Shown here piece after piece: positions 7,852 to 24,806 of a stretch of DNA of 64,000 nt. The stretch comes from Oxalobacteraceae bacterium AB_14 (lineage in GTDB: Bacteria; Pseudomonadota; Gammaproteobacteria; Burkholderiales; Burkholderiaceae_D). Under the pieces are notes generated by a model, which was given only the letters and a program-made list of their open reading frames with translations, was not told the origin of the DNA and made no database searches. Position numbers and translations under genes: made by a program. Numbering within the stretch: the stretch's first letter is position 1; every line of letters starts with the position of its first letter. The DNA lies in contig KB906724.1 in the NCBI GenBank assembly GCA_000381565.1, forward strand, positions 2,544,801 through 2,608,800, read 5' to 3'.

Positions 7852-7865
7852 TGCATGCTCCTCCA

Positions 7866-9320
7866 TCAGACCGGGTAGTGGCGGTGGCCGCTCTGGATGG
7901 TGATCCAGCGCAGGTCGGTGAATTCGGCGATGCCGGCCTTGCCGCCGAAGCGCCCGTAGCCGCTGGCCTTGACGCCGCCGAACGGCATCTGCGCTTCATC
8001 GGCCACGGTGGAGCTGTTGATGTGGCAGATGCCCGATTCGATGCGGCGCGCCAGTGCCAGCGCGCGCGCGATGTCGCGGCTGAAGACGGCGGCGGACAAG
8101 CCGTATTCGCTGGCGTTGGCCTCGGCCAGCGCCGCCTCGTCGCCATCGACGCGGATGATGCCGACGATGGGCCCGAACGACTCTTCCTGGTACACCAACA
8201 TGGCCGGCGTGATGTGGTCGATGATCGCCGGTTGCAGCAGGTTGCCTTCGCTGGCTGCGCTGCCGCAGACGATATGCGCGCCCTTGGCCTGGGCGTCGGC
8301 GATCATGGCGGCCACGCGGCTGGCCGCCGAGGCGTCCACCATGCCGCCCAATACCGCGCCTTCCTGGCCGGGTTTGCCGGCGGGCAGGCCGGCGGTCTTG
8401 ACGCGCAGTTTTTCGACGAAGGCGTCGGCGATCTTGTTGTCGACGATGATGCGGTCGGTCGACATGCAGATCTGGCCCTGGTTGAAGAAGGAGCCGAAGG
8501 CGGCCGCCTGCACCGCCTCATCGAGGTCGGCATCGTCCAGCACCAGCAGCGGATTCTTGCCGCCCAGTTCCAGCACCACCGGCTTCAGATGCTGCGCGGC
8601 CTGCTGGGCGATGATGCGTCCCACCTTGGTCGAACCGGTGAAGTTGATGCGCTTGACGGCCGGATTGGCGATCAGGCGCGCCACCACGGCGGCGGCGTCC
8701 TGCGGCGCGTTGCTGATGACGTTGACCACGCCGGCCGGGAAGCCGGCATCCTCGAACACTTTGCCGATCAGGCGGTGCACCGCGGGGCACACCTCGGACG
8801 ACTTGAGCACCACCGTATTGCCGCAGGCCAGAGGCGTGGCGATGGCGCGCGTACCCAGGATCACCGGCGCATTCCACGGCGCGATGCCCAGCACCACGCC
8901 GCAAGCCTGGCGCATGCCCATCGCCATCAGGCCCGGCACGTCGGACGGAATCACCTCGCCGGCGATCTGGGTGGTCAGCGAGGCCGCTTCGCGCAGCATG
9001 GAGGCCGCCAGCATCACGTTGAAGCCGTACCAGCCGGCCACGCCGCCGGCTTCGGCCACGCCGGCCGCGATGAACTCGGGCGCGCGGGCTTGCAGGCAGT
9101 CGGCTGCCTTGAGCAGCAGGCGGCGACGCTCGTTGGGCGCGGTGGCGGACCAGCCGGGGAAGGCCGCCTGCGCGGCGGCGACGGCGGCGTCGGCATCGTC
9201 CAGCGTGGCGGCGGCGGCCACCGAGGCGGTGTCGCCGGTGGCCGGGTTGAGGCGCTGGTAAGTGGCGCCGGTGGACGAGGCCTGGTCCAGGCCTCCGATC
9301 AGCAAACGGGCTTCAAGCAT
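7866..9320 (-). CDS. vdh: Vanillin dehydrogenase (aromatic aldehyde dehydrogenase)
   Basis: 484 residues, complete ALDH fold: catalytic Glu251 in LELGGKNP, catalytic Cys285 in NQGQICMS, Rossmann segment INFTGSTKVGR and C-terminal MPFGGVKASGYGRFG. It is placed between ech and fcs, where the known cassette carries vanillin dehydrogenase, which oxidises vanillin (and 4-hydroxybenzaldehyde) to the acid with NAD. Cytoplasmic, no signal peptide. Only 14 bases separate its stop from the fcs start, so the two are likely coupled. The vanillin assignment rests on family plus location; other benzaldehydes are likely substrates too. Confidence 0.88.
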   Translation of the reverse strand: MLEARLLIGGLDQASSTGATYQRLNPATGDTASVAAAATLDDADAAVAAAQAAFPGWSATAPNERRRLLLKAADCLQARAPEFIAAGVAEAGGVAGWYGFNVMLAASMLREAASLTTQIAGEVIPSDVPGLMAMGMRQACGVVLGIAPWNAPVILGTRAIATPLACGNTVVLKSSEVCPAVHRLIGKVFEDAGFPAGVVNVISNAPQDAAAVVARLIANPAVKRINFTGSTKVGRIIAQQAAQHLKPVVLELGGKNPLLVLDDADLDEAVQAAAFGSFFNQGQICMSTDRIIVDNKIADAFVEKLRVKTAGLPAGKPGQEGAVLGGMVDASAASRVAAMIADAQAKGAHIVCGSAASEGNLLQPAIIDHITPAMLVYQEESFGPIVGIIRVDGDEAALAEANASEYGLSAAVFSRDIARALALARRIESGICHINSSTVADEAQMPFGGVKASGYGRFGGKAGIAEFTDLRWITIQSGHRHYPV

Positions 9321-9355
9321 GGCGTATCTCCTGTGTTATTGGCGTGGTGTGCGTC

Positions 9356-10189
9356 TTATGCGCGCTTGTAGGTTTGCAGGCCTGGTTTGATGGTCTTATC
9401 GTCCAGGAACTGCTTGAGGCCCTGGGCGCGGCCTTTTTCCGGGTCGCGGTAGTTGGACTGGTCGACTTTGGCGTACAGGTAATCCTCGCTTTGCTCCCAG
9501 GTCAGTTCACGGCAGCGTTTGAAGCCATGCTTGGCGATGCGCAGCACGGTCGGCGCCTTGGCCAGCAGCTTTTCCGCCAGTTCGATGGTCGCTTCGCGCA
9601 GCTGCGCCAGCGGCACGCTCTTGTTCACCAGGCCCATGGCGGCCGCTTCCTTGCCGGTGAAGGTGTCGCCGGTCATGATGTAGTGTAGCGCCTGACGGTG
9701 GCCCATGGTGTCGGCGACCGCTTTGCTGACCAGATTACCGGGCGGGATGCCCCAGTTGATCTCCGACAGGCCGTACACCGCTTCGTCGGCGGAGATGGCC
9801 AGGTCGCAGGCGACCAGCGGCGAGAACGCGCCGCCGAAGCACCAGCCGTTGACCATGGCGATGGTCGGCTTGCTGTACATGCGCAGCAGCTTCCATTGCC
9901 ACTGCGAGCAGTCGCGGCGCAGCTTCTCCTGGAAGATCTCCGGCTTGCCGTCGTTTTCGCGGAAGTACTCCTTCAGGTCCATGCCGGCGGTCCAGCTGTC
10001 GCCGGCGCCGGTCAGCACCAGCACTTCGGCTTCCGGGTCCAGCTCCAGGGTTTCCAGCACGTCGATCATTTCGCGGTTCAGCGTCGGGCTCATGGCGTTG
10101 CGCTTTTCCGGACGGTTCAGGATCACCCAGGCGATGCCGCCGGTGATCTCGACTTTTACGGTGCTCCAGCGGTTGTTGTATTGGCTCAT
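9356..10189 (-). CDS. ech: p-Hydroxycinnamoyl-CoA hydratase/lyase
   Basis: 277 residues of the crotonase fold. Residues described as important in the Pseudomonas enzyme are present at the same numbers: Tyr75 (DLKEYF), Ser123 (FGGAFS), Glu143 (GLSEINWG) and Tyr239 (EDYLYA). The enzyme hydrates feruloyl-CoA and cleaves it to vanillin and acetyl-CoA. First gene of the leftward ech-vdh-fcs unit. Its upstream gap (10190-10308) holds a promoter and a palindrome shared with the divergent MarR gene, so induction by a hydroxycinnamoyl-CoA or free acid acting on that regulator is likely. Confidence 0.94.
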   Translation of the reverse strand: MSQYNNRWSTVKVEITGGIAWVILNRPEKRNAMSPTLNREMIDVLETLELDPEAEVLVLTGAGDSWTAGMDLKEYFRENDGKPEIFQEKLRRDCSQWQWKLLRMYSKPTIAMVNGWCFGGAFSPLVACDLAISADEAVYGLSEINWGIPPGNLVSKAVADTMGHRQALHYIMTGDTFTGKEAAAMGLVNKSVPLAQLREATIELAEKLLAKAPTVLRIAKHGFKRCRELTWEQSEDYLYAKVDQSNYRDPEKGRAQGLKQFLDDKTIKPGLQTYKRA

Positions 10190-10232: not shown

Positions 10233-10242
10233 CGTGACTTAT

Positions 10243-10270
10243 AATATATGCTGCTTGGGCTGTAATGCAA
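10243..10270 (-). promoter_or_regulatory. Predicted sigma-70 promoter of ech-vdh-fcs
   Basis: On the minus strand TTGCAT, 16 bases, TATATT. The predicted start falls near 10236, just before the palindromic operator, which leaves an untranslated leader of about 45 bases to the ech ATG at 10189. Confidence 0.5.
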
Positions 10271-10308
10271 GCGCTTTTCGAACGCTTTCTTTTGAATTTT
10301 GGATCACG

Positions 10309-10764
10309 ATGAAAAAACCTCCTTCCGCCGCGCACGACAAGCCCACCGGCATCGCCTATCTGATCGGCCGCATCGACCATGTGCTGAGCCGGCGCCTGCG
10401 CGACAGCCTGGGTTTGCTGGGCATGACGGCGGCCCAGTACACGGCGCTGTCGGTGCTCGACACCCAGCAGCAGCTGTCGAACGCCCAGTTGGCCGAGCGC
10501 TCGATGATCTCGCCGCAATCGGCCAACGAGATGGTCAAGGCGATGGAGGCGCGCGGCTGGATCGTGCGCCAGGCCGACGCCAATCATGGCCGCATCATCC
10601 ATCTGCGCCTCAGTGCCGAGGGCAGCGCTTTGCTGCGCCAGGGCGATGCGGCGGTGGCGGAGCTGGAGCGCGCGATGCTGGCCGAACTGGACGCCGACCA
10701 GCGCGGCGATCTGCATGCGCAACTGCGCGTGCTGCTGCGCTCACTGAGCGCCATCGTGCTGTAA
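10309..10764 (+). CDS. MarR family regulator, probable repressor of the ferulate genes
   Basis: 151 residues; the start is ATG10309. The winged-helix domain is visible: MTAAQYTALSVLDTQQQLSNAQLAERSMISPQSANEMVKAMEARGWIVRQAD, then a wing with HGRIIHLRLSAEG. It is divergent from ech and separated from it by a gap containing a good palindrome, the arrangement of FerR/CouR-type repressors that respond to hydroxycinnamoyl-CoA. Its 3' end overlaps the convergent thiolase gene by 24 bases, so its last eight codons are read on both strands. Confidence 0.85.
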   Translation: MKKPPSAAHDKPTGIAYLIGRIDHVLSRRLRDSLGLLGMTAAQYTALSVLDTQQQLSNAQLAERSMISPQSANEMVKAMEARGWIVRQADANHGRIIHLRLSAEGSALLRQGDAAVAELERAMLAELDADQRGDLHAQLRVLLRSLSAIVL

Positions 10765-12024
10765 CTGCCGCCAGCGCGGGTTCTCCAGCAGCAGGGCGAT
10801 GCCCTGGCCGCCGCCGACGCAGGCCGCCGCCACGCCGTAGCGCTGGCGCCGCAGGTCGAGCGCGCGCGCCAGCGTGATGGTCAGGCGCACGCCGGTCGCC
10901 GCCAGCGGGTGGCCCAGCGCGATCGCGCCGCCGTGGATGTTGAGGCGGTCCCGGTCCAGCTTCAATTCACGCTCCACGGCGACGATCTGCGCGCCTTGCG
11001 CTTCATTGATTTCGAAAAGACCTATTTGCTGCAGGTTCAATCCGCAGCGGTCGAGCAGCAGGCGGATCGCCGGCGCGGGGCCGATGCCCATGACTTCGGG
11101 TGGCACGCCGACCACCGCCGCCGCCACGATGCGCGCCTGCGGCCGATGCCCGCCGTGCATGGCATAGGCGCCGGAAGCGACGATGGCGGCGGCCGCGCCG
11201 TCGGCCAGCGCGCAGCTGTTGCCGCCGGTTTGCACGCCGTGCGGATACAGCGGGCGCAAGGTGGCCAGCACCGACGGCGGGGAGATGCGCGGATGGGTGT
11301 CCTGCGCCAGCTCCGTCATCGGTCCGGACAGCCGGATGCGGCGGTCGGCACAATCGTCCAGCGTGAAGACCTCGTTGCCGACGGCGACGATCTCGCCGGC
11401 GTGGAAGCCGGCGGTCCTGGCGTCGAGCGCGCGGGCGTGCGACTGCGCGGCGAACTTGTCCACCTCGGCGCGCGTGATGCCGTAGCGGCGCGCCAGGTTC
11501 TCGGCGGTCTGCGGCATCGTGATCCCTGGCGCGGGATCGGTCAGCGCCTCCCACAGAAAATCCTCGAAGCCGACCGGCGCGCCCAATTTGAAGCCGCTGC
11601 GGTGGTTGAAGGCGGCGATCGGATTGCGCGTCATCGACTCGGTGCCCACGACCAGCACGGCGTCGGCGTAGCCCAGTGCGATCTGGTCGCCGGCCTGGCG
11701 GAACAACTCGAATCCGGTGCCGCAGATGCGCTGCACGTTCAGCGCCGGCACCGTCAGCGGCACGCCGGCATACAGGCCGATATGGCGGGGCAGCATGTAC
11801 TGGTAGCAGTCGCCTGGCGCCATGCTGCCGCTGATGACGGAGCCGATGTCGGTGGCCGGCACGCCGCTGCGTTTGAGGACCGCGCGCGCCGCCTTGATGC
11901 CGAGATCCGTGGGCGAAACCTGGCTGAAGGCGCCGCAGTAGTCGGCCAACGGCGTACGCAGGCCGTCGATCAGCCACAAGTCGTCGTAGCTGTGGAAGAA
12001 GCCTTGGTTGGCGGTTCTGCTCAT
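10741..12024 (-). CDS. Thiolase family protein (acetyl-CoA acetyltransferase-like)
   Basis: 427 residues. Nucleophile Cys101 sits in NVQRICGTGFE, the histidine in GGAIALGHPLAATG and the second cysteine in AACVGGGQGIALL. The usual NEAFA motif reads NEAQG, a conservative departure. The ATG at 12024 overlaps the esterase stop by four bases and begins a normal thiolase N-terminus after a short leader (DLWLIDGLRTPLADYCGAFS). Last gene of the nine-gene leftward run. A thiolase (aat) also accompanies fcs and ech in Pseudomonas; it may serve a beta-oxidative removal of the phenylpropanoid side chain. Substrate unknown. Confidence 0.85.
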   Translation of the reverse strand: MSRTANQGFFHSYDDLWLIDGLRTPLADYCGAFSQVSPTDLGIKAARAVLKRSGVPATDIGSVISGSMAPGDCYQYMLPRHIGLYAGVPLTVPALNVQRICGTGFELFRQAGDQIALGYADAVLVVGTESMTRNPIAAFNHRSGFKLGAPVGFEDFLWEALTDPAPGITMPQTAENLARRYGITRAEVDKFAAQSHARALDARTAGFHAGEIVAVGNEVFTLDDCADRRIRLSGPMTELAQDTHPRISPPSVLATLRPLYPHGVQTGGNSCALADGAAAAIVASGAYAMHGGHRPQARIVAAAVVGVPPEVMGIGPAPAIRLLLDRCGLNLQQIGLFEINEAQGAQIVAVERELKLDRDRLNIHGGAIALGHPLAATGVRLTITLARALDLRRQRYGVAAACVGGGQGIALLLENPRWRQLQHDGAQ

Positions 12025-13913
12025 GGCCAGTAGTTCGGGCGCAGCTGTCCGGTAGGACCGGCGTAGCCGTGGGCGAGGGCGAAGGCCTCCAGCGCCTGCG
12101 GCGCTTCGTAGCCGCCGAAGATCGACCACAGGAACATGCGGCCATACAGTTCACAGCGCTCGCGCGGGTCGCCGTGCAGCGCGGGGTCGCGCGCCAGCTC
12201 CGCCTTCAATGTGGCAAGGCTGTTCTCGTGGGCCACCATGCGGGTGCCGCCGTCGGCGCTGGTGTCGAACACCATTAGGCGCGCAGCGCTGGTATCGCCG
12301 CTCCAGCGCCGCCATTCAGGCAGCTCGCCGGCCGGGCCGCTGCCAGGTTCGCCGTGGCGGGCAAAGTGCGTCCAGTAGCCGGCCATGGCGTCGGAGACTT
12401 CCTTGCGGCCAGGCAGGTTGGTGGAAGTGAAGGAGCGGAATGGATCGAACTCGCCATCGAGGTCGCGCAGGACGAAGGCGACATCCAGCACGTGGGCGGC
12501 GCCCAGCAGCACGCGCGGCGCGATCAAGGGCACGGCGGGCTGTTCGTCCCAGTCGAAGCGGTAGGTCCACACGTCGCGGTGGCCCGACGCCACCATGGCG
12601 CTGGCCGGTTCCAGCGCGCCGGCGGCTTGCCACAGTGCGGACATGTAGGCCGCGTGGCGCTGATAGCGGGCGCGGTTGCGCATCAGCGGGATGCGGCCGA
12701 ACAGCATGCGCACGTAATCGGGATTGTTGGACATGAACAGCTTGTATTCGTCGCGGTTGGTGCCGATGATGACCGGCACCGCGTTATAGCGGCTACGGTC
12801 GGCGAACGCCTCGGCCAGCGGCATGGCCGGCAGCACGTGGCCGTCCTGGATCACGCAGGGCGCATCGTAGAAGCTGAGCGCTCCCGGTGTGATCGGCGCC
12901 AGCAGGGCTGCGGCGGGCAGGGCGCGCACGTAGTCGGCGATGTCGGCGGCCGGCATGGACGCGATCAGGGCCTTGGCGGCGGCGCGGTCGGCGGCGCGGC
13001 CGTCGCGCTGCAACCATAGGCACAGCAGCTCGCGCGAACTGAGGGCATGGCCGGGCAGGGCGTCGTCCGTGTAGTTGCGGGCTTGCGCCGGGGTGTAGCT
13101 GACCGCCAGCGGCGATTGCAGGATGGCGCGGTGGAACAGGCCCTTGGCCAATGGGGAGGCCAGCAGAGTGTAGGCATTCAGGCCGCCGGCCGATTCGCCG
13201 AACACGGTGACGTTATCGGGATCTCCGCCGAATGCGGCGATGTGCTGGCGCACCCATTGCAGCGCCGCGACCAGGTCCAGCGTGCCGAAGTTGCCGGAGC
13301 GGTCGGCGGGGCTGTCGTCGTCCTGCGCCAGTTCGTCGAGACTGAACCAGCCGAGGATGCCGAGCCGGTAGTTGGCCGATACCACCAGCACGCGGTCCTG
13401 GCCGGCCAGGTTGCGCAGCGTGGTGTAGGTTGCGGCGGTGCCGGCCGTGTTGGCGCCGCCGTGGATCCAGAACATCACAGGCAGCGCGGCGATGTGCGCC
13501 GCTTCAGCCGTCATCTGTGGCGCGAACACATTCAGCGTCAGGCAGTCTTCCGAGCCGGCCACCTGGCCCCACTGGCCGGGCGGCAGTTCCAGCGTGGCGC
13601 CGGCCAGTTGCGGCGCGGGCCCGCCGAAGGCCAACGCCTCACGCACGCCGGACCAGGGCTGCGGCGGGCGCGGCGCCTTCCAACGTAGCGGGCCAACCGG
13701 GGGCTGCGCATACGGCAGTCCAAGCCAAGTGTGGGTTTGGTGGCGGTCGGCGCGGCCCACCACGTAGCCCAGCGCGGTGTGGCGCAGCGAATCGGCGGCT
13801 GGAATTGCGGTCGTGGCGGGGCTGGCCGCGACGGTGGCGGATTTCCGACGGAGGCGCCACAGCAGGGCGCCCATCGCCAGGGCGACGGCGGCATAGAGCA
13901 GGATGTCAGGCAT
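12021..13913 (-). CDS. Type-B carboxylesterase, membrane-anchored N-terminus
   Basis: 630 residues. An N-terminal hydrophobic segment ([16 protein letters not shown], residues 4-19) followed by basic residues looks like an anchor or uncleaved signal. The alpha/beta-hydrolase part begins near residue 48, with oxyanion motif WIHGGA (150-154), EDCLTLNVF, and nucleophile Ser241 in VFGESAGG, all hallmarks of type-B carboxylesterases. It overlaps the chemoreceptor gene by 8 bases and the thiolase by 4, so it is firmly in this operon. In context it may free an aromatic alcohol or acid from an ester before oxidation, as AreA does for benzyl esters in Acinetobacter; the substrate is inferred. Confidence 0.84.
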
Positions 13914-15540
13914 GATTGAATTCCTCTTTTAGCGAGAGTGCGGGATGTGGCGGCGGCGGGGTGGCATGGCCGGCGCCGTCGTCGAGTTTGAAGGCATGCA
14001 CCAGCCGTGCCAGTTCGTCCGCTTGCTGGCGCATGCCGGCGGTGGCGCCGGTCGCTTGTTTGACCAGTTCCGCGTTCTGTTGCGTCACCAGCTCCATCGC
14101 TTGCAAGGCGGCGCCGGCCTGCTCGATGCCGGCTTGCTGCTGGACGCTGGCGGCGGCGATGCGGTCGATGATGACGCTGACCTGCTGCACGCTGTCGACC
14201 ACTTCGTTCATGGTGGCGCCGGCGCGCGCCACCAGCCGGTTGCCGGCTTCGACCTGCGTCACCGAATGGCCGATCAGCGTGCGGATCTCGCGCGCGGCGG
14301 TGGCGGAGCGTTGCGCCAGGTTGCGCACCTCGCCTGCTACGACGGCGAAGCCGCGCCCCTGTTCGCCGGCGCGGGCCGCTTCGACCGCCGCGTTCAGGGC
14401 CAGGATGTTGGTCTGGAAGGCGATGCCGTCGATGACGCCGATGATTTCGCCGATGCGGTGGGCCGATCCGGTGATGGAGTCCATCGTCAGGATCACTTCC
14501 GCCGCCACCTTGCCGCCGTCGCGCGCCACGGCGCTGGCGTTGGCGGCCAGTTCGGTGGCCTGGCGCGCATGGCCGGCGTTGTCGCGCACCGCGTCGGCCA
14601 GCTGCGCCACGCAGCCTGCGGTGGTGCGCAGCGATTTGCGCTGCTTGTCGCTGCGCCTCGTCAGGTCCTGGTGGCCGCCGGCGATTTCGCTGGCCGCTCC
14701 GGCGATATGGTCGGCGCCGCGCCGCACCTGGCCGACCATCGAGGCCAGTCCGGTGCGCATGCTGTGCATCGCGAATAGCAGGCTGGAAGCATCGCCGCCG
14801 CGCAGGCTGACATTCCCGGCCAGGTCGCCGGCGGCGGTGCGGCCGGCGATCTTGACCGCGTAGGCCGGCTCGCCGCCCAGCTGTTCGAGGATGCCGCGCG
14901 TCAGGCGCCAGCACAGCAGGCCGCCCAGCAGCAGGGCGCCCACGCTCAGCGCCAGTATCCAGGCGCGCGCGCCGGCGCCGGATGAGCGGCCCTGTGCGGC
15001 GGCCAGTTCGCTTTGGCGGGTCTCCAGCGCGACCAGCTGTTCCAGCGCAGTCATCCAGCGGGTCTGGACCGGCAGCAGGCGCTCGACCAGCACGGTGTAG
15101 ATCTGGTCCGATTCGCTGCGCATGGCCAGATCCATCGCTTGTGCGATCGGCGCCCGGGCCGCCGAATTTTGCTGGCCGATCTGCGCCAGCAAGGCCGATT
15201 CCTCGGCCGTCGCGCCATCGGCCAGCAGTTCGCGCAAGCGCTTTTCGGCGCCGGCGTAGCGCCTGGCCTGGTCCTGCATTCGCTCCGCTTCCGGCTGGAG
15301 GTAGGACAGGGAACCGATCAGCGCCATGTTGCGCAGCGCGATCATGCGTTCGTACACGGTGTCGCGCATTTGGGTGGCGAGCCGCGTCTTGACGTTGCCG
15401 ACCAGGGTGATCTGGTCGGTGCGCTGCTGCATCTGGTGCATGTGGACCAGGCCGAGCGCCACGACGGCGACCAGCAGCGCCAGGACCAGCCCGAAGCCGA
15501 GGCGCAGGCGCGCGCCGATGCTCATGTCGGAGGTGGCCAT
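13906..15540 (-). CDS. Methyl-accepting chemotaxis protein
   Basis: 544 residues from ATG15540, four bases after the RND stop. One transmembrane helix at about 11-32 ([19 protein letters not shown]), a helical periplasmic domain of the four-helix-bundle type (about 33-190), a second helix ([18 protein letters not shown]), a HAMP-like stretch, and the signalling hairpin [40 protein letters not shown]. The cytoplasmic tip is intact, so signalling to CheW/CheA is expected. Its position inside an aromatic catabolic operon suggests chemotaxis towards the substrate of that operon. Confidence 0.9.
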
Positions 15541-15544
15541 GGCG

Positions 15545-17974
15545 TCAGTGGATTCCGGCCACGGCGCGTTCCGGCGCCTGTGTCGCTTCATCCTGTTGCG
15601 CGGGCTTGGGCGGCATCAGGAAGTAGGCCAGCGCCGGCACCAGCACCAGCGCACCCACCATATTCCAAAGGAACATGAAGGCCAGCAGGATACCCATGTC
15701 GGCCTGGAATTTGATCGGCGAGAACAGCCAGGTGGCCACCGCCACGGCCAGCGTCACGCCGGTCAGGATCACCACCCGGCCGGTGAAGCGCAGCGCGTGC
15801 AGGTAGGCGTCGGACAGGCTGGCGCCGGCGCGCATGCGGGTCAGCATCACGCTCAGCACATACAGCGCGTAGTCCACGCCGATGCCGACGCCGAGCGCGA
15901 TCACCGGCAGCGTGGCGACCTTGACGCCCATGCCCAGCACCACCATCAGCACTTCGCACAGGATGGACGTGAGCACCAGCGGCAGGATGGCCACCAGCAC
16001 CGCGCGCCAGCTGCGGAAGGTGGCGTAGCACAGCAGGATCACCGCGCCGTAGACCCAGAACAGCATGTCGTGCATGGCCTGCTTGACGACGATGTTGGTG
16101 GCGGCCTCGATGCCGGCGCTGCCGGCGGCCAGCTGGAACTGCACATCCGGCGTGTTGTGGGCGGCGGCGTAGGCTTCGACCGCGTCGACCACGCGGGTCA
16201 ATGTGGCGGCCTTGTGGTCCTTCAGGTAGACGTACAGCGACAGCAGCGAGCAGCTCTGGTTGAACAGTTCGCGCGGGGCCCTGGTCTGCACCGCGCCGAG
16301 CGCGCCGGCATTCGGGATCAGGTCATACCATTTGAAGTTGCCTTCGTTGTAGCCGGTGGTGGCCAGCTTGCTCAACGCCGCCATCGAGTTGGTCGAGTCG
16401 ACGCCGGGCAGCTGTTCCAGCTGCCATGCCAGCTTGTCCACGCTGGCCAGCGTGGCATAGCGGGTGCACTGGTCGGGCGCGGTCTTGATCATCACCACCA
16501 GGATGTCGGAGCTGGCCGCGTAGTTGGCGACCATGAAGCCGTTGTCGCGGTTGTAGCGCGAATCGGCGCGCAGTTCCGGCGCCCCGGGATCGAGGTCGCC
16601 CACCTTCAGGTTAAGGCTGTACAGGTAGCCCAGGCCGCCCAGCAGCAGGCTGGCGGCCACCGTGATGGCGGCCCAGCGGCGCTGGGTGAAGCGGTCGAGG
16701 AAGGTCCACAACCAGGGCTGGGCCGCGCCATCGGCGCTGTCGGCTTGCAAGCTGCGCGCGGCGGCCGTGGCGCTGACGCCAGTGTACGACAGCAGCACCG
16801 GCAACAGCACCAGGTTGGTGAAGATCAGCACCGCCACGCCGATGCTGGCGATAATGGCGAGGTCCTGGATCACCTTGATCTGGATGCTGACCAGCACCGC
16901 GAAACCGACCGCGTCGCACAGCAGCGCGGTGAGGCCGGCGGCGAACAAGCGGCGGAAGGTGTAGCGCGCCGCCACCACGCGGTGCGTGCCGCGGCCCACG
17001 TCCTGCATGATGCCATTCATTTTCTGCGCGCCGTGGCTCATGCCAATGGCGAACACCAGGAAGGGCACCAGCACGGAATACGGATCGAGTTCGTAGCGCA
17101 GCGCGGCCAGCAAGCCGCATTGCCACAGCACCGCAACCAGTGAACACATGACCACCAGCGTGGTGCTGCGCCAGCAGCGTGTGTACCAGAACAGCACCGC
17201 GCCGGCGATGGCGATCGCCAGCAGGAAGAACATCAGCACCTGCTGCAGCCCCTCGATCAGGTCGCCGACGATCTTGGCGAAGCCGGTGATGTGGATACGC
17301 ACGCCTTCCTTCTGGTATTTGGCGCGGATCTGTTCCAGGCGTTCCGACATGGCGCCATAGTCTAGCGCCTGGCCGGTCTGGGGATTCTGCTCCAGCAGCG
17401 GCACGTAGACGATGCTGGACTTGAAGTCGGCCGCCACCAGCTGGCCGACTTCGCCGGAGCGGGCGACGTTGGCGCGCAATTGCGCCAAGGTGGCGGCCGA
17501 ACCGTCGTAACCGTCCGGGATGACGGTGCCGCCGTCCAGGCCTTCCTCGGTCACTGCTGCCCAGCGCGTGCTGGGCGTCCACAAGGACTTCATGAAGGGC
17601 CGGTCCACGCCCGGCAGCAGGAACACTTCGTCGTTCAGGCGCTGCAGGGTATCGAGGTAGGCGCGGTCGTAGATGGTGCCGCCGTTCGCTTCGACAGCGA
17701 TGCGCACCGAGTTGCCCAGCCCATTCAGGTCGGCCTTGTTGGCCAGGTAGTTGACCACGTAGGGATGGGCGCTGGGGATCATCTTCTCGAAGCTCGCATT
17801 GAGCTTGATGCGCGTGGCCTGGTAGCCCAGCACGATGGTCGCCAGCAGGCAAAGCAGGATGACCAGCGGCCGGTAATTGAACAGCGCGCGTTCCCCCAGG
17901 TTGCCGGAGCCGGTGTCGAAGTCCTGTAGCCGCCGTACTACCGGCTGTTGTTCCAAATCTTGATCTGTGTGCAT
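15545..17974 (-). CDS. RND/MMPL superfamily transporter
   Basis: 809 residues. It has the RND half-transporter plan twice: a transmembrane helix near residues 35-55, a periplasmic loop, then a bundle of helices (about 235-400); after a second single helix (about 440-460) and loop comes the second bundle (about 645-790). The [21 protein letters not shown] segment is the RND helix-4-type motif, with Asp for proton coupling. It follows DUF1302, DUF1329 and YCF48-like genes, a set that recurs in proteobacteria next to genes for hydrophobic substrates. Transport direction and substrate are not known; a role in moving lipophilic aromatic compounds across the envelope is inferred. Confidence 0.87.
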
Positions 17975-18010
17975 GATGTTCCAGCCATATTCGTGTGAAG
18001 GGGAAGGGCG

Positions 18011-19126
18011 CTAGCGCGGCGACGCCGGTGTGGCTACCCGGCGCAGGCCGCGCAGCCCGGCCACCACCAGCGCGCCGTCGCGGGCTTGCGCCACGGCGGC
18101 CAGCGGCAATGCGGGCGGCAGTGCGGCGCCTGCCTGCGGAGCGAAGCTGCGGCCCTGGTCGCGGCTGAACAGCACGTCGCCGCCCTGGCTGACCAGCACC
18201 AGCGTGCCGTCGGCCAGTTCGGCTCCGCCGGCCAGCGACGCCTGGACGCCGGTATCGACCTTGCTCCAGCTGGCGCCCTGGTCGCCGGACCAGTAGGCGT
18301 TGCCGCGCAAGCCGTAGGCGACCAGTGCGCCGCCGCGCGCGGCCAGCAGGCCGAAGTAGCTGCCCCTGTATGGGCTGGCGAGGGCGCTGAAGCTGGCTCC
18401 CTGGTCGGTGGAGCGCAGCAGCAGGCCCTGTTCGCCGGCCAGATAGAGCGCGCCGCCGGCGCCGCGCATGCCGTACAGGTGCAGGCCCTTGGGATTGGCG
18501 ACATGCTGCTGCCACGGTTGCCAGGTGGCGCCACCGTCGTCGGTCTTGAACAGCAGGTTGTAGGCGCCCAGCACGTAGCCGTTGCGGGCGTTGGCGAAGT
18601 GCAGGTCGAGGAAGGGCGTGTCAGGACCGTCCGCCACCAGGTGCCGGGCGTCGGCCAGGGCGCGCTCCCGCTCCTGGGGCGTGACCTCGGCGGCCGCCTT
18701 GAGCACCAGCGCGGCGGCCTGGATGCCATCGAGCTGCTTGCTCCAGGTGGCGCCGCCGTCGGCGCTGTGCAGCACCACGCCCTGGTGGCCGGCCGCCCAG
18801 CCTTGGTGGGCGTCGATGAACTGCACGGCCGTCAGGCTGACGCCGACCGGCACGCTGGCCTGGCGCCACGAGACGCCGGCATCATCCGAGTACAGGATGG
18901 TGCCGCGCTCGCCGACCGCCACCAGCCGCTGGCCGGCGGCGGCGATGGACAGCATGGCCGCGTTCAAGGCTTTGGGCGTGACCAGTGCCGGCTGCGTCAA
19001 CGCAGCAGGGATGACCGCGGCACCGGCGGCGCCTTCGGCCCAGGCCCCCGGCGCCAGCGCGCCGGACGCTGCGAACAGCGCCGCCAGCGCCGCGCGGCGG
19101 ACCGCGATTGGATTCAACTTGTTCAT
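18011..19126 (-). CDS. YCF48/BNR-repeat secreted protein
   Basis: 371 residues from ATG19126, which has AAGGGG six bases upstream; a GTG at 19141 is possible. A signal peptide (AALAALFAASGALAPGAWAEG) is followed by a beta-propeller built from BNR/Asp-box repeats: YSDDAGVSW, HSADGGATW, KTDDGGATW, RSTDQGASF, WSGDQGASW and FSRDQGRSF. Relatives are named after the photosystem II stability factor HCF136/YCF48, but in proteobacteria they occur beside MMPL transporters and DUF1302/DUF1329 proteins. Probably a periplasmic accessory of the transporter encoded 36 bases downstream. Confidence 0.84.
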   Translation of the reverse strand: MNKLNPIAVRRAALAALFAASGALAPGAWAEGAAGAAVIPAALTQPALVTPKALNAAMLSIAAAGQRLVAVGERGTILYSDDAGVSWRQASVPVGVSLTAVQFIDAHQGWAAGHQGVVLHSADGGATWSKQLDGIQAAALVLKAAAEVTPQERERALADARHLVADGPDTPFLDLHFANARNGYVLGAYNLLFKTDDGGATWQPWQQHVANPKGLHLYGMRGAGGALYLAGEQGLLLRSTDQGASFSALASPYRGSYFGLLAARGGALVAYGLRGNAYWSGDQGASWSKVDTGVQASLAGGAELADGTLVLVSQGGDVLFSRDQGRSFAPQAGAALPPALPLAAVAQARDGALVVAGLRGLRRVATPASPR

Positions 19127-19141
19127 CGAACGCCCCTTCAC

Positions 19142-20500
19142 TTAGCGCGAGCCCTGGTTGGCCAGTTCCTCGGGGCCGAAATAGCTGGCCGGCAGTCGAG
19201 GAATGGTCTTGTACTGGGTCGCCAGGTCGTTCGACGCCTCGTTCAGCAGGTAGGCGCCGGTCTGCACGTTATAGGTGCCCCACATGACGTTGCCCACCAC
19301 GGCCGGCAAGTCCGGCGCCAGCAGCGTCAGCGTGTAGTTGCCGCGCCAGATCTGGCCTTGCGCGTCGTAACCGTCGACCAGGATGATCTGCCAGGTGTCT
19401 TCGTCCAGGTAGTAGCGGCGTTTGGTGACCACGTGGCGTTTGCCGGGAATCAGGCTCGCTTCCACTTCCCACACCCGGTGCAGCTCCCAGCGCACCAGGT
19501 CCGGATTGAGGAACTGCGGTCCAACCAGGTCGCTGATCTTGGCCGAGGCGGCGCGGTTGTTGTTGTAGGGGATGTACATTTCCTTCTTGCCGACCAGCTT
19601 GAGCTCATGATGATCGATAGGCCCGAACAGCATGAACGCCTCGTCGAACAGGCCGATGCCGGAGGTGACCGAGTCCGGTGTGTCATAGGACACCGACGGC
19701 GCGCGCCGCACGCGGCGCTGGCCCACCAGGTACTGCCAGATCGCGCGCGGCTGGGCTTCGCTGATGCCGTCGTGGACCAGTATCCCTTCGCCGGCCTTGG
19801 AGGCAGGCGCGCGCGTGATCAGGCGGCCGAACTGGTAGATGCCGTCGAATTTTTCCAGGCTGCCGTCCTTGAAGTAGTACGGCCGCATGATGGTCTGTTC
19901 TGCCTCGGTGGCGGTGGCGCGCTTGCCGTCCGGCGTGACAATGGTGGTCCGCAACGGGAACACGGTGGTTTCGCCGGTCCAGGCCAGGCGGTGGTTCATC
20001 ATGGCCTCGTAGCCGGTCTTCGGAATCGGGAACGGGATGCCGCCGAACGCGCCTTTCACGCCGAAGCCACCGTCGATGGATTTGGCGCGGGTGGCGTTCT
20101 TGAAGGTGTTCTCATACACCCAGGCCGGCGCGCCGCCGGTGCGATGGGTGGGATAGACGTCGACCCGGTAGCTTGGATATTTTTTCAGCAGCGCCACCGT
20201 GGCCGCCGACAGCTTGGCCGCGTACTGGTCGACGTTCTTGCCGGTGATGGCCAGCGTCGGCTTCTCGGCGGCGAAGGGATCGGCGCGGAAGTCGCCCGCC
20301 TTGAAACCGGCCGGCACCTTGGTGTAGGCGCCGTCCCAGGCGGGAATGGTGGCGTCCTTGTTGCCGGCCTTTTCGGCGCCCAGCGGGGTCAATGTGGAAT
20401 GCAGTTTGGCTGCTTCGTCGGCGGTGACGGCGGCGCCGGCGTGCGGCAGGGTGAATGCCAGCATCAGCGCGGCGGCGGTGAGGTTCAGGGTCGTCTTCAT
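19142..20500 (-). CDS. DUF1329 family periplasmic protein
   Basis: 452 residues with a signal peptide (LNLTAAALMLAFTLPHAGAA). The full-length DUF1329 pattern is visible: AAKLHSTLTPLGAEKAGN near the N-terminus, then blocks such as FPIPKTGYEAMMNHR and NNRAASAKISDLVGPQFLNPDLVRWELHRVWEVEA. The fold is thought to resemble lipoprotein carriers of the LolA/LolB type, which would suit transfer of a hydrophobic molecule. It sits between DUF1302 (13 bases away) and the YCF48-like gene, whose alternative GTG start directly follows its stop. Molecular function is not established. Confidence 0.86.
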   Translation of the reverse strand: MKTTLNLTAAALMLAFTLPHAGAAVTADEAAKLHSTLTPLGAEKAGNKDATIPAWDGAYTKVPAGFKAGDFRADPFAAEKPTLAITGKNVDQYAAKLSAATVALLKKYPSYRVDVYPTHRTGGAPAWVYENTFKNATRAKSIDGGFGVKGAFGGIPFPIPKTGYEAMMNHRLAWTGETTVFPLRTTIVTPDGKRATATEAEQTIMRPYYFKDGSLEKFDGIYQFGRLITRAPASKAGEGILVHDGISEAQPRAIWQYLVGQRRVRRAPSVSYDTPDSVTSGIGLFDEAFMLFGPIDHHELKLVGKKEMYIPYNNNRAASAKISDLVGPQFLNPDLVRWELHRVWEVEASLIPGKRHVVTKRRYYLDEDTWQIILVDGYDAQGQIWRGNYTLTLLAPDLPAVVGNVMWGTYNVQTGAYLLNEASNDLATQYKTIPRLPASYFGPEELANQGSR

Positions 20501-20513
20501 TATAGTTTTGTCC

Positions 20514-22217
20514 TTAGAATGCGCGTTTGATGTTGAAGGAGATGTAGTCGCGGTCCGCCAGCGACTGGGCGAAGCTCAGGATGGGCGTGTTGGTGGCGGG
20601 ATTATTTTTCAGGAAGGTGCCTGCCGCGCCGAGGAAGCGCACGTAGCTGATCCCGAACTTCCAGTCCTGGTGGTAGGTGGCGTTGACGCCGATATTGAAG
20701 TCGCCCCCGTGCGAGCTGCCGCCGTTGAAGTTGAACACGGCGCGTGAGCGGCCGTCGATGTTGTAGCCGACGCCGATCGGGATCGACAGGTCGAGACCAT
20801 TGATCACCTGGTAGTAGGCCGGCTCGAAGATCATGCGCGCCGAGGTGGCGTCGCGCGTGGTGTTCGGATCGAGCGAGCCTTGCCAGGTGACGCTGGTGGC
20901 GCGGTTCCACGCCAGTTCGCCCAGCAGCGAAGCGCCCTGGAAGAACGGGTTGGTCGGCATGACGTAGATCGCCGACAGGTTGACGTGCGCCGTGTTGCCG
21001 ACCGCGTAGGCTGGATTGCCGCTGTTATCGGCGAACACGCCGGTGCCGGCACGCGACAGGAAGTTCGGCGTCGGGTCGCTGACCAGCGGCGTGTTGCGGC
21101 GAACCGAAACCTCGGCCGCCACGTTCGCGCCCAGCAGCACGGTGCTGGCGCTGGCGCCGAAGGTGCGGATGCCTTCCGCATACACGGCCTGCACGGTGGA
21201 CGGCGCGCCGGGCGGGAAGCCGGGCTTGAAGCCCAGGTAGAAGTAGGGCGTCTTGTCGTGATAGCGGGCCGCGTAGAAACCGTATTCGACGTCCGAGCCG
21301 GCCGGCGAGAACTTGATCTGCATGCCGCCCTGGCCCGAATTCCTGGCCTTCATGTCGGCGACGGTGTAGAAGGCCGGGGCGCCGCTGTTGGTCGGCGCCA
21401 CCAGGAAGGCGCTGCTGCCGGCGCCCGCTGCGTCGTAGGAACTGAGGTAGCTGCCGACGCCCGGGATCTGGGTCGGACGCCATTCGAACTGGTAGTAGCC
21501 GCCGATCGACACGCTTGGCAGCACCTGCAGCTGGCCCGAGACCTGGTTGACCGGCCGCAGGATCTCCTTGAACTGCGCGCCCGGCACGCTAAGCAGCTTG
21601 ACCAGGTCCACCGGTCCCTGCGCGTTGGCGATGCCGTTGGCGCCGAAGAACAGGCTTTCGCCGTATTGCAGCGTGTGGCGGCCGACGCGCACGGTGCCCG
21701 GCAGCTCGCCCAACGAACCCTTGGCGAAGACGAAGGCGTCCAGCAGTTCGGCGTTGCGGCCGTGGAGCAGGCGGGTGCCCTCGGCGAAGGTGTTGCCGGC
21801 CTTGCCGGTCAGTGTGACGGCGTTGCTGGAAGCGGAGGCGTTGTCATTGCTGCCGGTGTAGGAGCTGTCGTACCAGGCGGCGGCGCTGACGCGCATGCCG
21901 AGGTTGCGGGTGCCGGCGTCGAACTCGGTCAGCCAGTCGATGCGGCTTGAGACGATGCCCTTGCGGCGGAAGTTCTGGTTGCCGTCGTCGATGTTATAGC
22001 CGGTGAAGTCGCCGGCGCCGGACGAACGATAGCCGCCCGCCAGCAGGCGCGCGTCGGCGTCCTTGAGGCGGTAGGCGCTGCTGTACTTGAAGGTGTTGTT
22101 CCAGCTGATCTTGAAATCGGGATTGTCGGTCTCGAACTCGAAGGCGTGGGCGGCCGGCATGGCGGCCGCCACGGCCAATGCCAACAGGGTTGGGCTCAGG
22201 CGTTTGTTCGCTTGCAT
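20514..22217 (-). CDS. DUF1302 family outer-membrane protein
   Basis: 567 residues with a signal peptide ending AAHAFEFE. The sequence alternates as expected for an outer-membrane beta-barrel and ends in a phenylalanine after DRDYISFNIKRAF, the usual barrel sorting signal. Blocks such as NTFKYSSAYRLKD and VRVGRHTLQYGESLFFGANGIANAQGPVDL are characteristic of DUF1302. In known clusters DUF1302 and DUF1329 proteins are always adjacent, as here, and a substrate-entry or export channel role is proposed. It starts 62 bases after the SDR stop, with no obvious terminator or promoter in between, so it probably belongs to the same transcript. Confidence 0.87.
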   Translation of the reverse strand: MQANKRLSPTLLALAVAAAMPAAHAFEFETDNPDFKISWNNTFKYSSAYRLKDADARLLAGGYRSSGAGDFTGYNIDDGNQNFRRKGIVSSRIDWLTEFDAGTRNLGMRVSAAAWYDSSYTGSNDNASASSNAVTLTGKAGNTFAEGTRLLHGRNAELLDAFVFAKGSLGELPGTVRVGRHTLQYGESLFFGANGIANAQGPVDLVKLLSVPGAQFKEILRPVNQVSGQLQVLPSVSIGGYYQFEWRPTQIPGVGSYLSSYDAAGAGSSAFLVAPTNSGAPAFYTVADMKARNSGQGGMQIKFSPAGSDVEYGFYAARYHDKTPYFYLGFKPGFPPGAPSTVQAVYAEGIRTFGASASTVLLGANVAAEVSVRRNTPLVSDPTPNFLSRAGTGVFADNSGNPAYAVGNTAHVNLSAIYVMPTNPFFQGASLLGELAWNRATSVTWQGSLDPNTTRDATSARMIFEPAYYQVINGLDLSIPIGVGYNIDGRSRAVFNFNGGSSHGGDFNIGVNATYHQDWKFGISYVRFLGAAGTFLKNNPATNTPILSFAQSLADRDYISFNIKRAF

Positions 22218-22279
22218 TGTCAGTCTCCTGGTTATAGTTTTGGTTGGCCGCTAACGCGCGGCCGGGCGGATGGCAGGCA

Positions 22280-23047
22280 TCAGATAAAGGTCGAAGCCAG
22301 TCCTCCGTCGATGGGCAGGTTGACGCCGCTGATCCAGCGTGATTCGTCGCTGCACAGGAAGCTAATGACGGCGGCCACTTCGTCGGCATAGGCCGGGCGC
22401 TTCATGCGGTGGGCGTCGCGCTGCACGCGCTCCTCGCCGAGCATGGACACGAAGTCGCCCAGGATAGGCGTGAAGACGGGGCCGGGCGCCACGCTGTTCA
22501 TGCGTACCGAATGCTGCAGGAACCATTTCTGCGATTGGACGTAGGTCCAGACGATCAGCGCCTCCTTGAAATACTGGTAGCAGGTGTCGGCTGGAACCGG
22601 ATGCGCATCCAGCCAGGCCTGGCCTTCGGTAAAACCACGGACGGCGGCCAACTGCTTGTGCAGCGCCAGCCGCTCCGGCCATTCCGCGCCCAGGATGGAG
22701 GCGACGTTGACGATGGAGCCGCCGGCCGGCATGCGGGGCAGCACGGCTTCGGTCAGGTGGCGCAGGCCGAGATAGTTGACGCGGGCCAGCAGCGCCGGAT
22801 CGGCGGTGCCGGGCACGCCGGCGATATTGCACAGCGCGTCCACGCGCTGCGGCAGCTGGGCGACGGCGGCGTCGATGCTGGCGGGCTGGCCCAGGTCAAC
22901 GGAGATGAAACCGTCCAGCGTCAGGCCTGGCTCGGTGCGGTCCATGCCGATCACGGTGGCGCCTTCGAAGCGCGCCAGGCGCGCCACTTCGGCCCCGATG
23001 CCGGATGCGGCGCCGGTGACGACGATGGTCTTGTTACGTAGCTTCAT
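22280..23047 (-). CDS. Short-chain dehydrogenase, coniferyl-alcohol-dehydrogenase-like
   Basis: 255 residues, classical SDR: TGAASGIGAEV cofactor motif (residues 11-21), acidic end of beta-2 (GMDRTE) suggesting NAD preference, NVASILG with the catalytic serine, and a YxxxK pair in CYQYFKEAL. C-terminal ISGVNLPIDGG is typical. Length and motifs resemble coniferyl-alcohol dehydrogenase (CalA) and 3-alpha-hydroxysteroid dehydrogenases. It follows an aromatic ALDH by 35 bases, so alcohol and aldehyde oxidation are paired. Coniferyl alcohol is the favoured substrate because the ferulate genes are on the same stretch; a benzylic alcohol is the main alternative. Confidence 0.83.
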   Translation of the reverse strand: MKLRNKTIVVTGAASGIGAEVARLARFEGATVIGMDRTEPGLTLDGFISVDLGQPASIDAAVAQLPQRVDALCNIAGVPGTADPALLARVNYLGLRHLTEAVLPRMPAGGSIVNVASILGAEWPERLALHKQLAAVRGFTEGQAWLDAHPVPADTCYQYFKEALIVWTYVQSQKWFLQHSVRMNSVAPGPVFTPILGDFVSMLGEERVQRDAHRMKRPAYADEVAAVISFLCSDESRWISGVNLPIDGGLASTFI

Positions 23048-23082
23048 GTGGTCTCCTTGTTGGTATGGTCGTTGTATGCTCG

Positions 23083-24552
23083 TTAAAAGGGATAGCGCGG
23101 CGCTTCGGTTTTCACCGTCAGCCACTGCCATTGGGTGAACTCGTCCCAGTCGGAACTGCCGCCATGACGGCCGCCGTTGCCCGAGGTGCCGCCGCCGCCG
23201 AACGGCGCGTGCGCTTCGGCCAGCACCGTCTGGTCGTTGATGTGGGCGTGGCCGGCCGGCACGCGGTCGACGATGAACATGGCGCGCGCCAGCGTCGGCG
23301 TGATTACGCCCAGCGCCAGGCAGCCGGTGGTGGCCGAGGCCAGCGCGATGGCTTCCTGGTCGGTGTCGAACACGGTGACCGAGGCCACGGGGCCGAACAG
23401 CTCCTCCTCGAAGCAGCGCATGCCGGGGCGCACGCCGGTCAGCACGGTGGGCTGGTAGAACTGTTTCTCGTAGGTGCCGCCGGCCAGCAGCGTGGCGCCG
23501 GCGGCCACGCTGTCCTGCACGATGGCGTGCACGCGCTGCACCTGGCGCGCATTGATCAGCGGCCCAAGCGCCACCTTGCCGCTCATCGGGTCGCCCACCG
23601 GTAGATGTTGGGCTTTGGCCACCAGCCGTTCGATGACGGCGTCGGCGATGCCGCGCTGGAGCAGGATGCGGCCGGAGGCCATGCAGATCTGGCCCTGGTG
23701 CAGATAGGCGCCCCAGGCCACGGCGGAGGCGGCGAGCTCGGGATCGGCGTCGTCGAGGATGATCAGCGAGTTCTTGCCGCCCAGTTCCAGCGACATCTTC
23801 TTCAGGTTGCGGCCCGCCAGCTCGCCTACGCTGCGGCCCACCGCGGTCGAACCGGTGAAGGCGATCATGGCGATGTCGGGATGGCTGCACATCGCCTGTC
23901 CCGCTTCGGCGGCGCCGGGCAGCACGTGCAGCAGGCCTTTGGGCAGGCCGGCCGCCTCGAAGACGCGGGCGATCAGCACGCCGCCGCTGACCGGCGTTTG
24001 CAGGTCGGGCTTGTGAACCACGGCGTTGCCGGTGGCCAGCGCCGGCGCGATTGAGCGGATCGACAGGATCAGCGGAAAGTTGAACGGCGAGATCACGCCG
24101 ATCACGCCGTGCGGCACGCGCCGCGCGATGCTCATCTCGCCGCTGGCGGAGGCCAGCAGCTGGCCCTTGGGCTGGGTCAGCATCGCCGCCGCTTCCAGCA
24201 GGTGGGCGCCGGCTTCGCGCAGTTCCAGGTCGGCCTTGGGGCGGATCGCGCCGGTCTCGCGCACGATCCATGTCGCCAGCTCGTCGTGATGCTCGACGAC
24301 GATGGCAGCCGCGCGGCGGAAGATGGCGGCACGCTCCTTGTAGTCGCTGGCGGCCCACGCGGCCTGCGCGGCGCGTGCCTGGGTGGCGGCGCGCGCCACG
24401 TCGTCGGCGTTTGCCAGGCCTACGCGGCCCAGCTGTTCGCCGGTCGCGGGTTCGGCGAAGGTGTGGCTGCCGCCTTGGGCGGCGATCCAGTCGCCGTTGA
24501 AGATGTGGCTCTGCCAGATCGATGGGTGCAAAAGCGCGTTCGCGTTGGTCAT
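23083..24552 (-). CDS. Aromatic aldehyde dehydrogenase (benzaldehyde/coniferyl aldehyde dehydrogenase-like)
   Basis: 489 residues. Catalytic Glu256 lies in SLELGGKNS and Cys290 in HQGQICMASGR; the cofactor segment is AFTGSTAVGRSVGELAGRNLKK. The C-terminal FGGGGTSGNGGRHGG block and the closing WLTVKTEAPRYPF resemble XylC/AreC benzaldehyde dehydrogenases more than CalB. It is the promoter-proximal gene of the nine-gene leftward unit and is divergent from a sigma-54 activator of aromatic catabolism. In combination with the SDR it should turn an aromatic alcohol into the acid; coniferaldehyde to ferulate would link it directly to fcs. Confidence 0.86.
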   Translation of the reverse strand: MTNANALLHPSIWQSHIFNGDWIAAQGGSHTFAEPATGEQLGRVGLANADDVARAATQARAAQAAWAASDYKERAAIFRRAAAIVVEHHDELATWIVRETGAIRPKADLELREAGAHLLEAAAMLTQPKGQLLASASGEMSIARRVPHGVIGVISPFNFPLILSIRSIAPALATGNAVVHKPDLQTPVSGGVLIARVFEAAGLPKGLLHVLPGAAEAGQAMCSHPDIAMIAFTGSTAVGRSVGELAGRNLKKMSLELGGKNSLIILDDADPELAASAVAWGAYLHQGQICMASGRILLQRGIADAVIERLVAKAQHLPVGDPMSGKVALGPLINARQVQRVHAIVQDSVAAGATLLAGGTYEKQFYQPTVLTGVRPGMRCFEEELFGPVASVTVFDTDQEAIALASATTGCLALGVITPTLARAMFIVDRVPAGHAHINDQTVLAEAHAPFGGGGTSGNGGRHGGSSDWDEFTQWQWLTVKTEAPRYPF

Positions 24553-24644: not shown

Positions 24645-24660
24645 TACAAGTTATGTGCCA
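24645..24660 (-). promoter_or_regulatory. Candidate sigma-54 (-24/-12) promoter for the nine-gene leftward unit
   Basis: On the minus strand TGGCAC, five bases, TTGTA. The -24 half is a perfect match to TGGCAC and the spacing is right; the -12 half has GT in place of the nearly invariant GC of TTGCA. The predicted start is near 24633, giving a leader of about 80 bases before the ALDH gene. The divergent sigma-54 activator gene and the upstream activator site make this the natural promoter, but the -12 mismatch lowers certainty. Confidence 0.5.
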
Positions 24661-24775: not shown

Positions 24776-24791
24776 TTGATGAAATGATCAA
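24776..24791. promoter_or_regulatory. XylR/DmpR-type upstream activator sequence
   Basis: TTGATGAAATGATCAA matches TTGATCAATTGATCAA, the type of site bound by DmpR/XylR activators, at 14 of 16 positions, with perfect outer TTGAT/ATCAA arms. It lies about 120 bases upstream of the candidate -24 element, a normal enhancer distance, and directly before the activator gene's own start. A weaker similar half site, CGATGAAACGTCG, is at 24728-24740. Confidence 0.6.
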
Positions 24792-24806
24792 ATGGGAGAA
24801 ATGCCG

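Follow-up and report, generated by a model that had tools for sequence, protein, structure and literature searches.

The stretch analysed here, 64,000 nucleotides of the soil organism Oxalobacteraceae bacterium AB_14 (contig KB906724.1, hereafter the window), carries on its minus strand, at 10741-24552, a unit of nine genes in which a dehydrogenase of the coniferyl-alcohol family precedes an AmeABCD-type transport cassette, a chemoreceptor gene and a carboxylesterase gene; a divergent activator gene lies on the plus strand (24792-26660). What is new in this unit is that in close relatives its RND transporter, AmeD, is one polypeptide with the predicted cytoplasmic carboxylesterase, in an operon of the coniferyl type. 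We propose a sigma-54-controlled operon whose products take up a coniferyl-type substrate, arriving at least partly as an ester, and carry out its first oxidation, a proposal that we regard as evenly poised between right and wrong. The families were assigned by Pfam and NCBIfam profile searches of the window proteins and agree, in identity, order and strand, with those of an earlier, preliminary description of this DNA. From the first gene of the unit to the last they are:

23083-24552, minus strand: aldehyde dehydrogenase (ALDH), coniferaldehyde-type by context (PF00171, 491.8 bits)
22280-23047, minus strand: short-chain dehydrogenase/reductase (SDR) of the coniferyl-alcohol dehydrogenase family (NF009092, 414.6 bits, passing the cut-off of 242)
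20514-22217, minus strand: AmeA-type DUF1302 outer-membrane barrel (PF06980 and structure model)
19142-20500, minus strand: AmeB-type DUF1329 periplasmic LolA-like carrier (PF07044 and structure model)
18011-19126, minus strand: AmeC-type YCF48-like periplasmic protein (PF14870, PSII_BNR, YCF48-type; alternative GTG start at 19141)
15545-17974, minus strand: AmeD-type RND/MMPL inner-membrane transporter (PF03176)
13906-15540, minus strand: chemoreceptor (MCP), between the AmeD and esterase genes (PF12729, 4HB_MCP four-helix-bundle sensor, and PF00015)
12021-13913, minus strand: COesterase with N-terminal anchor (PF00135, 298 bits; esterase matches in the Protein Data Bank, PDB)
10741-12024, minus strand: thiolase (PF00108/PF02803; synteny)

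In 12 of the 18 genomes of the genus that have the esterase, it lies in one open frame with the C-terminus of AmeD, giving proteins of about 1350-1410 amino acids; two of these 12 genomes are single-contig assemblies, and a thirteenth AmeD::esterase fusion is found in Janthinobacterium sp. PC23-8. The esterase had been described earlier as membrane-anchored, which holds for the window in the form of a predicted N-terminal anchor, but the fusion had been missed. Among the six genomes of the 18 with unfused genes, the MCP gene stands between the two in four (window, L107, L108 and L110) and not in L109 and L111, the genome of the latter being listed with 6% contamination. A scan with the fused AmeD alignment as bait, of which only the best matches were kept, gave among 80 named loci 7 that are fused, one (L034) split by an MCP gene and 72 with unfused AmeD, counts that overlap with those of the genus genomes. 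Outside the genus no fusion was found at E 1e-200 among 369 genomes of the class, of which 5 matched (own included); in a draw of 240 genomes of the family 24 matched and 3 were fused, all three in this genus. No fusion of an RND protein with a carboxylesterase was evident among the open-licence literature matches listed. In the same literature no paper was found that treats “coniferyl alcohol dehydrogenase” together with DUF1302/DUF1329, and “coniferyl alcohol” appears in none of the related open-licence papers among the matches listed.

RND proteins end in the cytoplasm, and the linkers of the fused proteins carry no hydrophobic segment (13 of 13). Among the unfused esterases, those of the window, L107, L110 and L111 have at the N-terminus a hydrophobic segment and, next to it, 2-5 basic residues, an anchor that predicts an N-out/C-in orientation with the esterase in the cytoplasm. 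All forms of the esterase that were seen are thus predicted from sequence to be cytoplasmic, and most of them to lie next to the membrane. For AmeD itself simple hydropathy gave 10 of the expected 12 segments. The Ser-Glu-His triad of the esterase, residues that we take to be catalytic, is present in GESAGG, GTNRDE and GAAH contexts (aligned with 8wdm), and both the esterase (dN/dS 0.15-0.24) and the MCP (0.15-0.30) are under purifying selection in six pairs each.

On a tree of AmeD (24 rows, 19 labelled) the fused and split states need four changes, at least three of them forced by well-supported branches, and the labels are hardly clustered, since equally low numbers of changes were obtained in 75 and 88 of 500 shuffles. 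The fused L112 and the MCP-split L107 are sisters; in the junction DNA of L112 the AmeD tail is joined to the esterase past its anchor, as a deletion from an L107-like state would give. From this we infer that fusion has probably occurred repeatedly within this clade through loss of the MCP gene.

An esterase follows ameD, or is fused to it, in 17 of the 34 named loci that carry the SDR gene (8 COesterase, 9 Abhydrolase_3) vs 3 of the 46 others, and two of these three are contigs of about 5 kb from which the upstream part is missing; the comparison leans to the SDR-bearing loci, the exemplars having come mostly from them, and the co-directional run alone was read. Since two distinct alpha/beta-hydrolase families occupy one place, an ester is indicated as the cargo. 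Outside this family of bacteria the esterase at this place is a different one; by hydropathy alone, a hydrophobic N-terminus is absent in all 12 of the Abhydrolase_3 esterases examined, with values of 0.25-1.39 vs 1.64-2.01 in exported proteins. L054 shows the order ameD-MCP-esterase again, with an esterase from a different family and an MCP whose domain composition differs. A Peripla_BP_6-type gene lies between ameD and the esterase gene in two loci (L059:10388-11500 and L063:10417-11505).

The preliminary description had proposed one complete module of nine genes, for which a survey of co-occurrence was to be made. In the window they do form one unit; as a conserved module the nine genes were rejected, since the presence of MCP and thiolase varies from locus to locus. 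The widespread core, as it emerges from the gene content of the loci, is the SDR with AmeABCD, usually accompanied by the regulator and the ALDH. Of the 80 named AmeD loci, 34 have the SDR gene upstream of the cassette (Pseudomonas, Comamonadaceae and relatives, Derxia, Oxalobacteraceae), which argues that the arrangement is not due to chance. Among these 34, the regulator was found in 27 and the ALDH in 25, their presence being scored by tblastn in loci that end 8 kb from the match and are in some cases cut; in eight Pseudomonas loci the SDR gene is directly beside the regulator gene, without ALDH. Of 74 genomes of the genus, 19 have the SDR, and the 18 that have the esterase (own included) are all among these 19 (Fisher p 2.6e-16, which is not a clean probability because of the kinship of the genomes and the linkage of the genes).

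The chemoreceptor is optional in the unit. Orthologs of it are found in 4 of the 18 esterase-bearing genomes of the genus (own included), and when the best match of each of the 18 is taken, orthologs of its sensor (80% or more) are confined to the four genomes in which an MCP gene splits the pair, no other match exceeding 54%; in the co-directional run after ameD an MCP gene occurs in 6 of the 34 SDR-bearing loci vs 3 of the 46 others. It carries both a signalling and a ligand-binding domain (PF00015, PF12729), and its sensor has only a weak match in the PDB (4e-4); the sequence gave no indication of the ligand. The thiolase travels with the ferulate genes ech, vdh and fcs, beside which it is found; some loci with these genes lack it (L027, L117) or keep no more than a remnant of it (L034/L110), and a reversed copy lies beside an fcs homologue in L030/L119. 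In Massilia sp. Root351 it has shrunk to a short match (L110:4853-5038).

The intergenic gaps of the unit range from 4 to 62 bases, the widest, as had been stated before, being one of 62 bases between the SDR and DUF1302 genes. Several overlaps of 4-8 bases had also been reported; the sizes of 8 and 4 bases are right but are confined to two junctions, MCP/esterase and esterase/thiolase respectively, and the RND/MCP junction is a 4-base gap, given the likelier MCP start at 15540 (the likeliest starts of SDR and thiolase are at 23047 and 12024). The genes for DUF1302, DUF1329, YCF48/COG4447 and RND proteins are adjacent and in the order of AmeABCD, and the best NCBIfam model for AmeD is HAE3 TIGR00921, at 143.5 bits under its cut-off of 351.9. 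The aromatic alcohol/aldehyde oxidation pair proposed earlier is borne out by the two families, the SDR being, on its profile match, the one specific enzyme call in the unit; for the ALDH no NCBIfam model reached its cut-off among the 25 matches listed. No sequence relative of the SDR was found in the PDB at E 1e-20, and another protein called CalA (PP_2426) turned out to be a vanillin reductase (PMC7054097).

Upstream and downstream of the unit lie the following features:

24792-26660, plus strand: XylR/DmpR/MobR-type sigma-54 activator facing the unit (Pfam XylR_N, V4R, Sigma54_activat, HTH_8)
24776-24791, minus strand: DmpR/XylR-type upstream site TTGATCATTTCATCAA, a palindrome (conserved island)
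24646-24660, minus strand: -24/-12 sigma-54 promoter TGGCACATAACTTGT, upstream of the ALDH gene (position, orientation, conservation)
10234-10764, plus strand: MarR-type regulator between the two operons (PF12802/PF01047; conserved)
5986-10189, minus strand: ferulate block, with ech 9356-10189, vdh 7866-9320 and fcs 5986-7866, named by family and context (Pfam ECH_1, Aldedh, AMP-binding; order conserved)

The facing activator had been placed in the XylR group, and its domains agree with this (XylR_N, V4R, AAA+ and a Fis-type HTH). Its sensor domain matches the structures of PoxR, CapR and MopR (4e-59 to 2e-49), and the His and Trp that presumably hold phenol, together with the residues that we take to bind zinc, appear conserved. 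The called starts of the regulator and ALDH genes are 239 bases apart, and within this interval lie both the likely sigma-54 promoter and, 115 bases further upstream on the operon strand, the palindromic site. TGGCACATAACTTGT is the sole exact -24/-12 match in the window; its frequency was dropped as evidence, 0.5 exact matches being expected by chance in 64 kb and one-mismatch matches numbering 11 vs 10.45 by chance. Because an exact chance match is not rare in 64 kb, the call is weighed on position, orientation and conservation. Of 51 regulator-bearing loci, 31 show the strict pattern at the corresponding place (27 of 44 when seven loci present twice are counted once), and 20 do not, many of them Comamonadaceae and some Pseudomonas. 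In 14 aligned loci of the nearest group, window included, promoter and upstream site are conserved islands, the upstream site showing few substitutions; L117 deviates at the promoter. The palindrome core of TTGATCATTTCATCAA is identical to the AphR site quoted in PMC6449761, where AphR-type sites are paired and usually lie 100-200 bases before -24/-12 promoters; a check for paired upstream sites 29-42 nt apart gave one clear site in the window.

The ferulate operon expected next door is indeed there, with the MarR gene between. In the window, as in L027-L029, L033 and L034, the genes ech, vdh and fcs adjoin the unit; in L052 and L060 they lie downstream of it at a distance of a few kb, as do ech and fcs in L038, where an MDR dehydrogenase gene follows ameD and the SDR was not found.

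As regards the transport cassette, its four families had been called recurrent and poorly understood. Recurrent they are, but they are not wholly undescribed, AmeABCD having been named in 2018 and treated in a regulon study in 2019 (PMC6449761), in which the four genes are predicted under XylR/DmpR-group and other regulators and assigned to solvent stress. The model of AmeA is a beta-barrel (pLDDT 73.4, with 82 residues under 50) for which VIA ranks channels of the Occ/OprD type first, with the BenF-like porin 3jty at Z 21.6 (321 residues, 3.5 A), OpdK with vanillate at Z 21.1 and AlgE at Z 20.2. TolC-like folds are not among the best 50 AmeA matches listed by VIA or Foldseek, which excludes nothing. 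AmeB (pLDDT 85.5) has in residues 161-450 a LolA-type fold (LolA3 9tp6, Z 20.5; DUF1329 4z48, Z 18.4), and no sequence relative of it was found in the PDB at E 1. The modelled folds of AmeA and AmeB would suit the shuttling of a lipophilic molecule and give no direction. A similar cluster has been tied to putative benzene transport (PMC13101534). Because of the position of the esterase, import is favoured here with moderate confidence.

Under this proposal the activator would sense an aromatic effector and fire the -24/-12 promoter. The substrate would cross the outer membrane through the predicted Occ-like barrel of AmeA and would be carried by AmeB, of predicted LolA fold, together with AmeC, to AmeD, which would pass it to the esterase on the cytoplasmic side of that membrane's inner counterpart, the inner membrane, present either as its C-terminal domain or as an N-anchored neighbour; hydrolysis of the ester would trap the cargo there. 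The SDR and the ALDH, whose families fit such a role, would turn the freed alcohol into a ferulate-type acid for degradation by the next operon, and the mid-operon chemoreceptor of a few lineages may give attraction to the substrate. Candidate cargo comes from acylated monolignols of plants, namely coniferyl ferulate, p-coumarate or acetate. A wider idea, put forward tentatively and with more doubt than belief, is that a subfamily of RND/HAE3-like proteins imports hydrophobic esters by transport-coupled hydrolysis, along a path from Occ-like channel through LolA-like carrier and RND protein directly to a cytoplasmic esterase of the same polypeptide, and that the MCP gene, which in some lineages separates the two parts, has by its loss fused them more than once.

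A number of observations weigh against uptake of an ester. The AmeABCD of Castellaniella defragrans, the closest studied system, was concluded to be an exporter from growth and Nile Red data (PMC6394551), so that import, presented earlier as a property of the unit, is better stated conditionally. The AmeA model is of moderate confidence only; AlgE, an export barrel, is just 1.4 Z under the best Occ match, and Foldseek alone puts general OmpF-type porins first, with low TM-scores. Two of the six unfused esterases (L108, L109) are without the N-terminal anchor, and in the hydropathy comparison the cytoplasmic control, the SDR, scores 1.51, near the exported proteins. Moreover, no esterase was recognised among the genes that follow ameD co-directionally in 17 of the 34 SDR-bearing loci, 13 of which are from Pseudomonas, and in five genomes of Oxalobacteraceae (L018, L020-L023) regulator, ALDH and SDR genes occur with no Ame match in the 20 kb fetched. 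After the ALDH and SDR genes of L021, where the Ame cassette would be, lies a gene for a Phenol_MetA_deg outer-membrane protein (L021:14123-15073); open reading frames of similar size occupy this place in L020, L022 and L023, the L021 protein alone having been checked.

The strongest alternative, rather unlikely in our judgement, is that AmeABCD is a pump for efflux of, or tolerance to, toxic coniferaldehyde, coniferyl alcohol or their esters, with an inner-face esterase that detoxifies or stops futile re-entry. RND families are mostly known as exporters. Cells deleted for AmeABCD tolerated monoterpenes less well and accumulated more Nile Red (PMC6394551), and the regulon study assigns the four genes a part in withstanding toxic aromatics (PMC6449761). 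An exporter is, however, harder to reconcile with an outer-membrane part that models as a porin/Occ-like barrel and with an esterase at the inner face, which would free the cargo on the wrong side; furthermore, growth of P. putida on Tween 20, itself an ester, required Ame-type genes (PMC10866462).

That the link between esterase and RND protein is incidental, the esterase being a membrane-located hydrolase acting on a by-product, a lactone or an acyl group unrelated to the cargo in an operon for free aryl alcohols that may diffuse in, would agree with the loci lacking an esterase or Ame genes described above and with RB-TnSeq data for Novosphingobium, in which pinoresinol did not require any transporter (PMC12607616); it is improbable in view of the two distinct hydrolase families at one place and of a fused/split state that changed at least three times on the AmeD tree with the genes still linked. 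Equally improbable would be another aryl or terpenoid alcohol (e.g. dihydroconiferyl, cinnamyl or perillyl) as the substrate, with the adjoining ferulate operon incidental: family names are no proof of substrate and the stretches fetched from fused relatives such as L114-L116 do not include the ferulate genes, but the SDR matches NF009092 and ech, vdh and fcs adjoin or lie near the unit in the loci listed above.

Some further observations concern the surroundings of the unit. The genome (7.03 Mb, 9 contigs) has three further DUF1302 matches besides that of the window, belonging to three more DUF1302/DUF1329/YCF48/RND cassettes (L024, L025, L026) with AmeD 38-62% identical and no SDR match; one of them (L025) has a different gene order and lies about 6-12 kb before the start of the window. 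Within the window a gene of the tannase/feruloyl-esterase family (28460-30187, plus strand), with a lipobox-like LSAC at the N-terminus of its product, adjoins a Peripla_BP_6 gene (27288-28448), and homologues of both also flank the regulator in L112 and L117; the tannase-family protein is possibly an outer supplier of hydroxycinnamates. A second Peripla_BP_6 gene (30201-31379, minus strand) and a Porin_4 gene (31585-32676, plus strand) are found beside the tannase gene.

Export is the function for which RND proteins are chiefly known, and AmeABCD-type cassettes sit by pathways for monoterpenes, phenanthrene, phenol and polysorbate, the direction of transport being unsettled. A natural fusion of an RND protein with a catabolic hydrolase suggests where the cargo is destined. 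If import is true, cassettes now labelled as efflux systems may serve to take up hydrophobic compounds as carbon sources, with a bearing on lignin conversion and biodegradation.

Several known systems resemble the unit in part. The nanopod/phenanthrene proteins of Delftia Cs1-4 belong to the same envelope families and are encoded beside aromatic-hydrocarbon degradation (PMC3110197, PMC3958437), and the “Nanopod” cluster of a benzene culture has DUF1329, YCF48 and MMPL proteins (PMC13101534); unlike the window unit, these systems are linked to vesicles or nanopods, and their accessible accounts mention no alcohol dehydrogenase or esterase fusion. The betaproteobacterial operons of DUF1302, PF07044, COG1033 and COG4447 genes regulated by AphR, AphS or AphT share with the window the XylR/DmpR-group regulator and the motif with the TTGATCATTTGATCA core, and in Burkholderia sp. 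383 an esterase/lipase and an ALDH are among the predicted targets; they differ in their phenol/biphenyl context and assignment to solvent stress, and the passages accessible mention neither a coniferyl dehydrogenase nor a fusion (PMC6449761). In P. putida, PP_0765, PP_0766, PP_2018 and PP_2019 encode a DUF1302 protein, a DUF1329 protein, a periplasmic protein and a pump for which a transport system was proposed, but the genes lie at two places and the accessible text describes no linked aromatic pathway (PMC10866462). Closest is AmeABCD of C. defragrans, in which DUF1302, DUF1329, COG4447/YCF48-type and HAE3-type RND genes stand in the same order beside a degradation pathway, although it serves monoterpenes, is described as an exporter and is given no esterase fusion in the passages at hand (PMC6394551). 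The window unit differs from it in having the SDR and ALDH, the sigma-54 activator and the esterase that is fused to AmeD in relatives.

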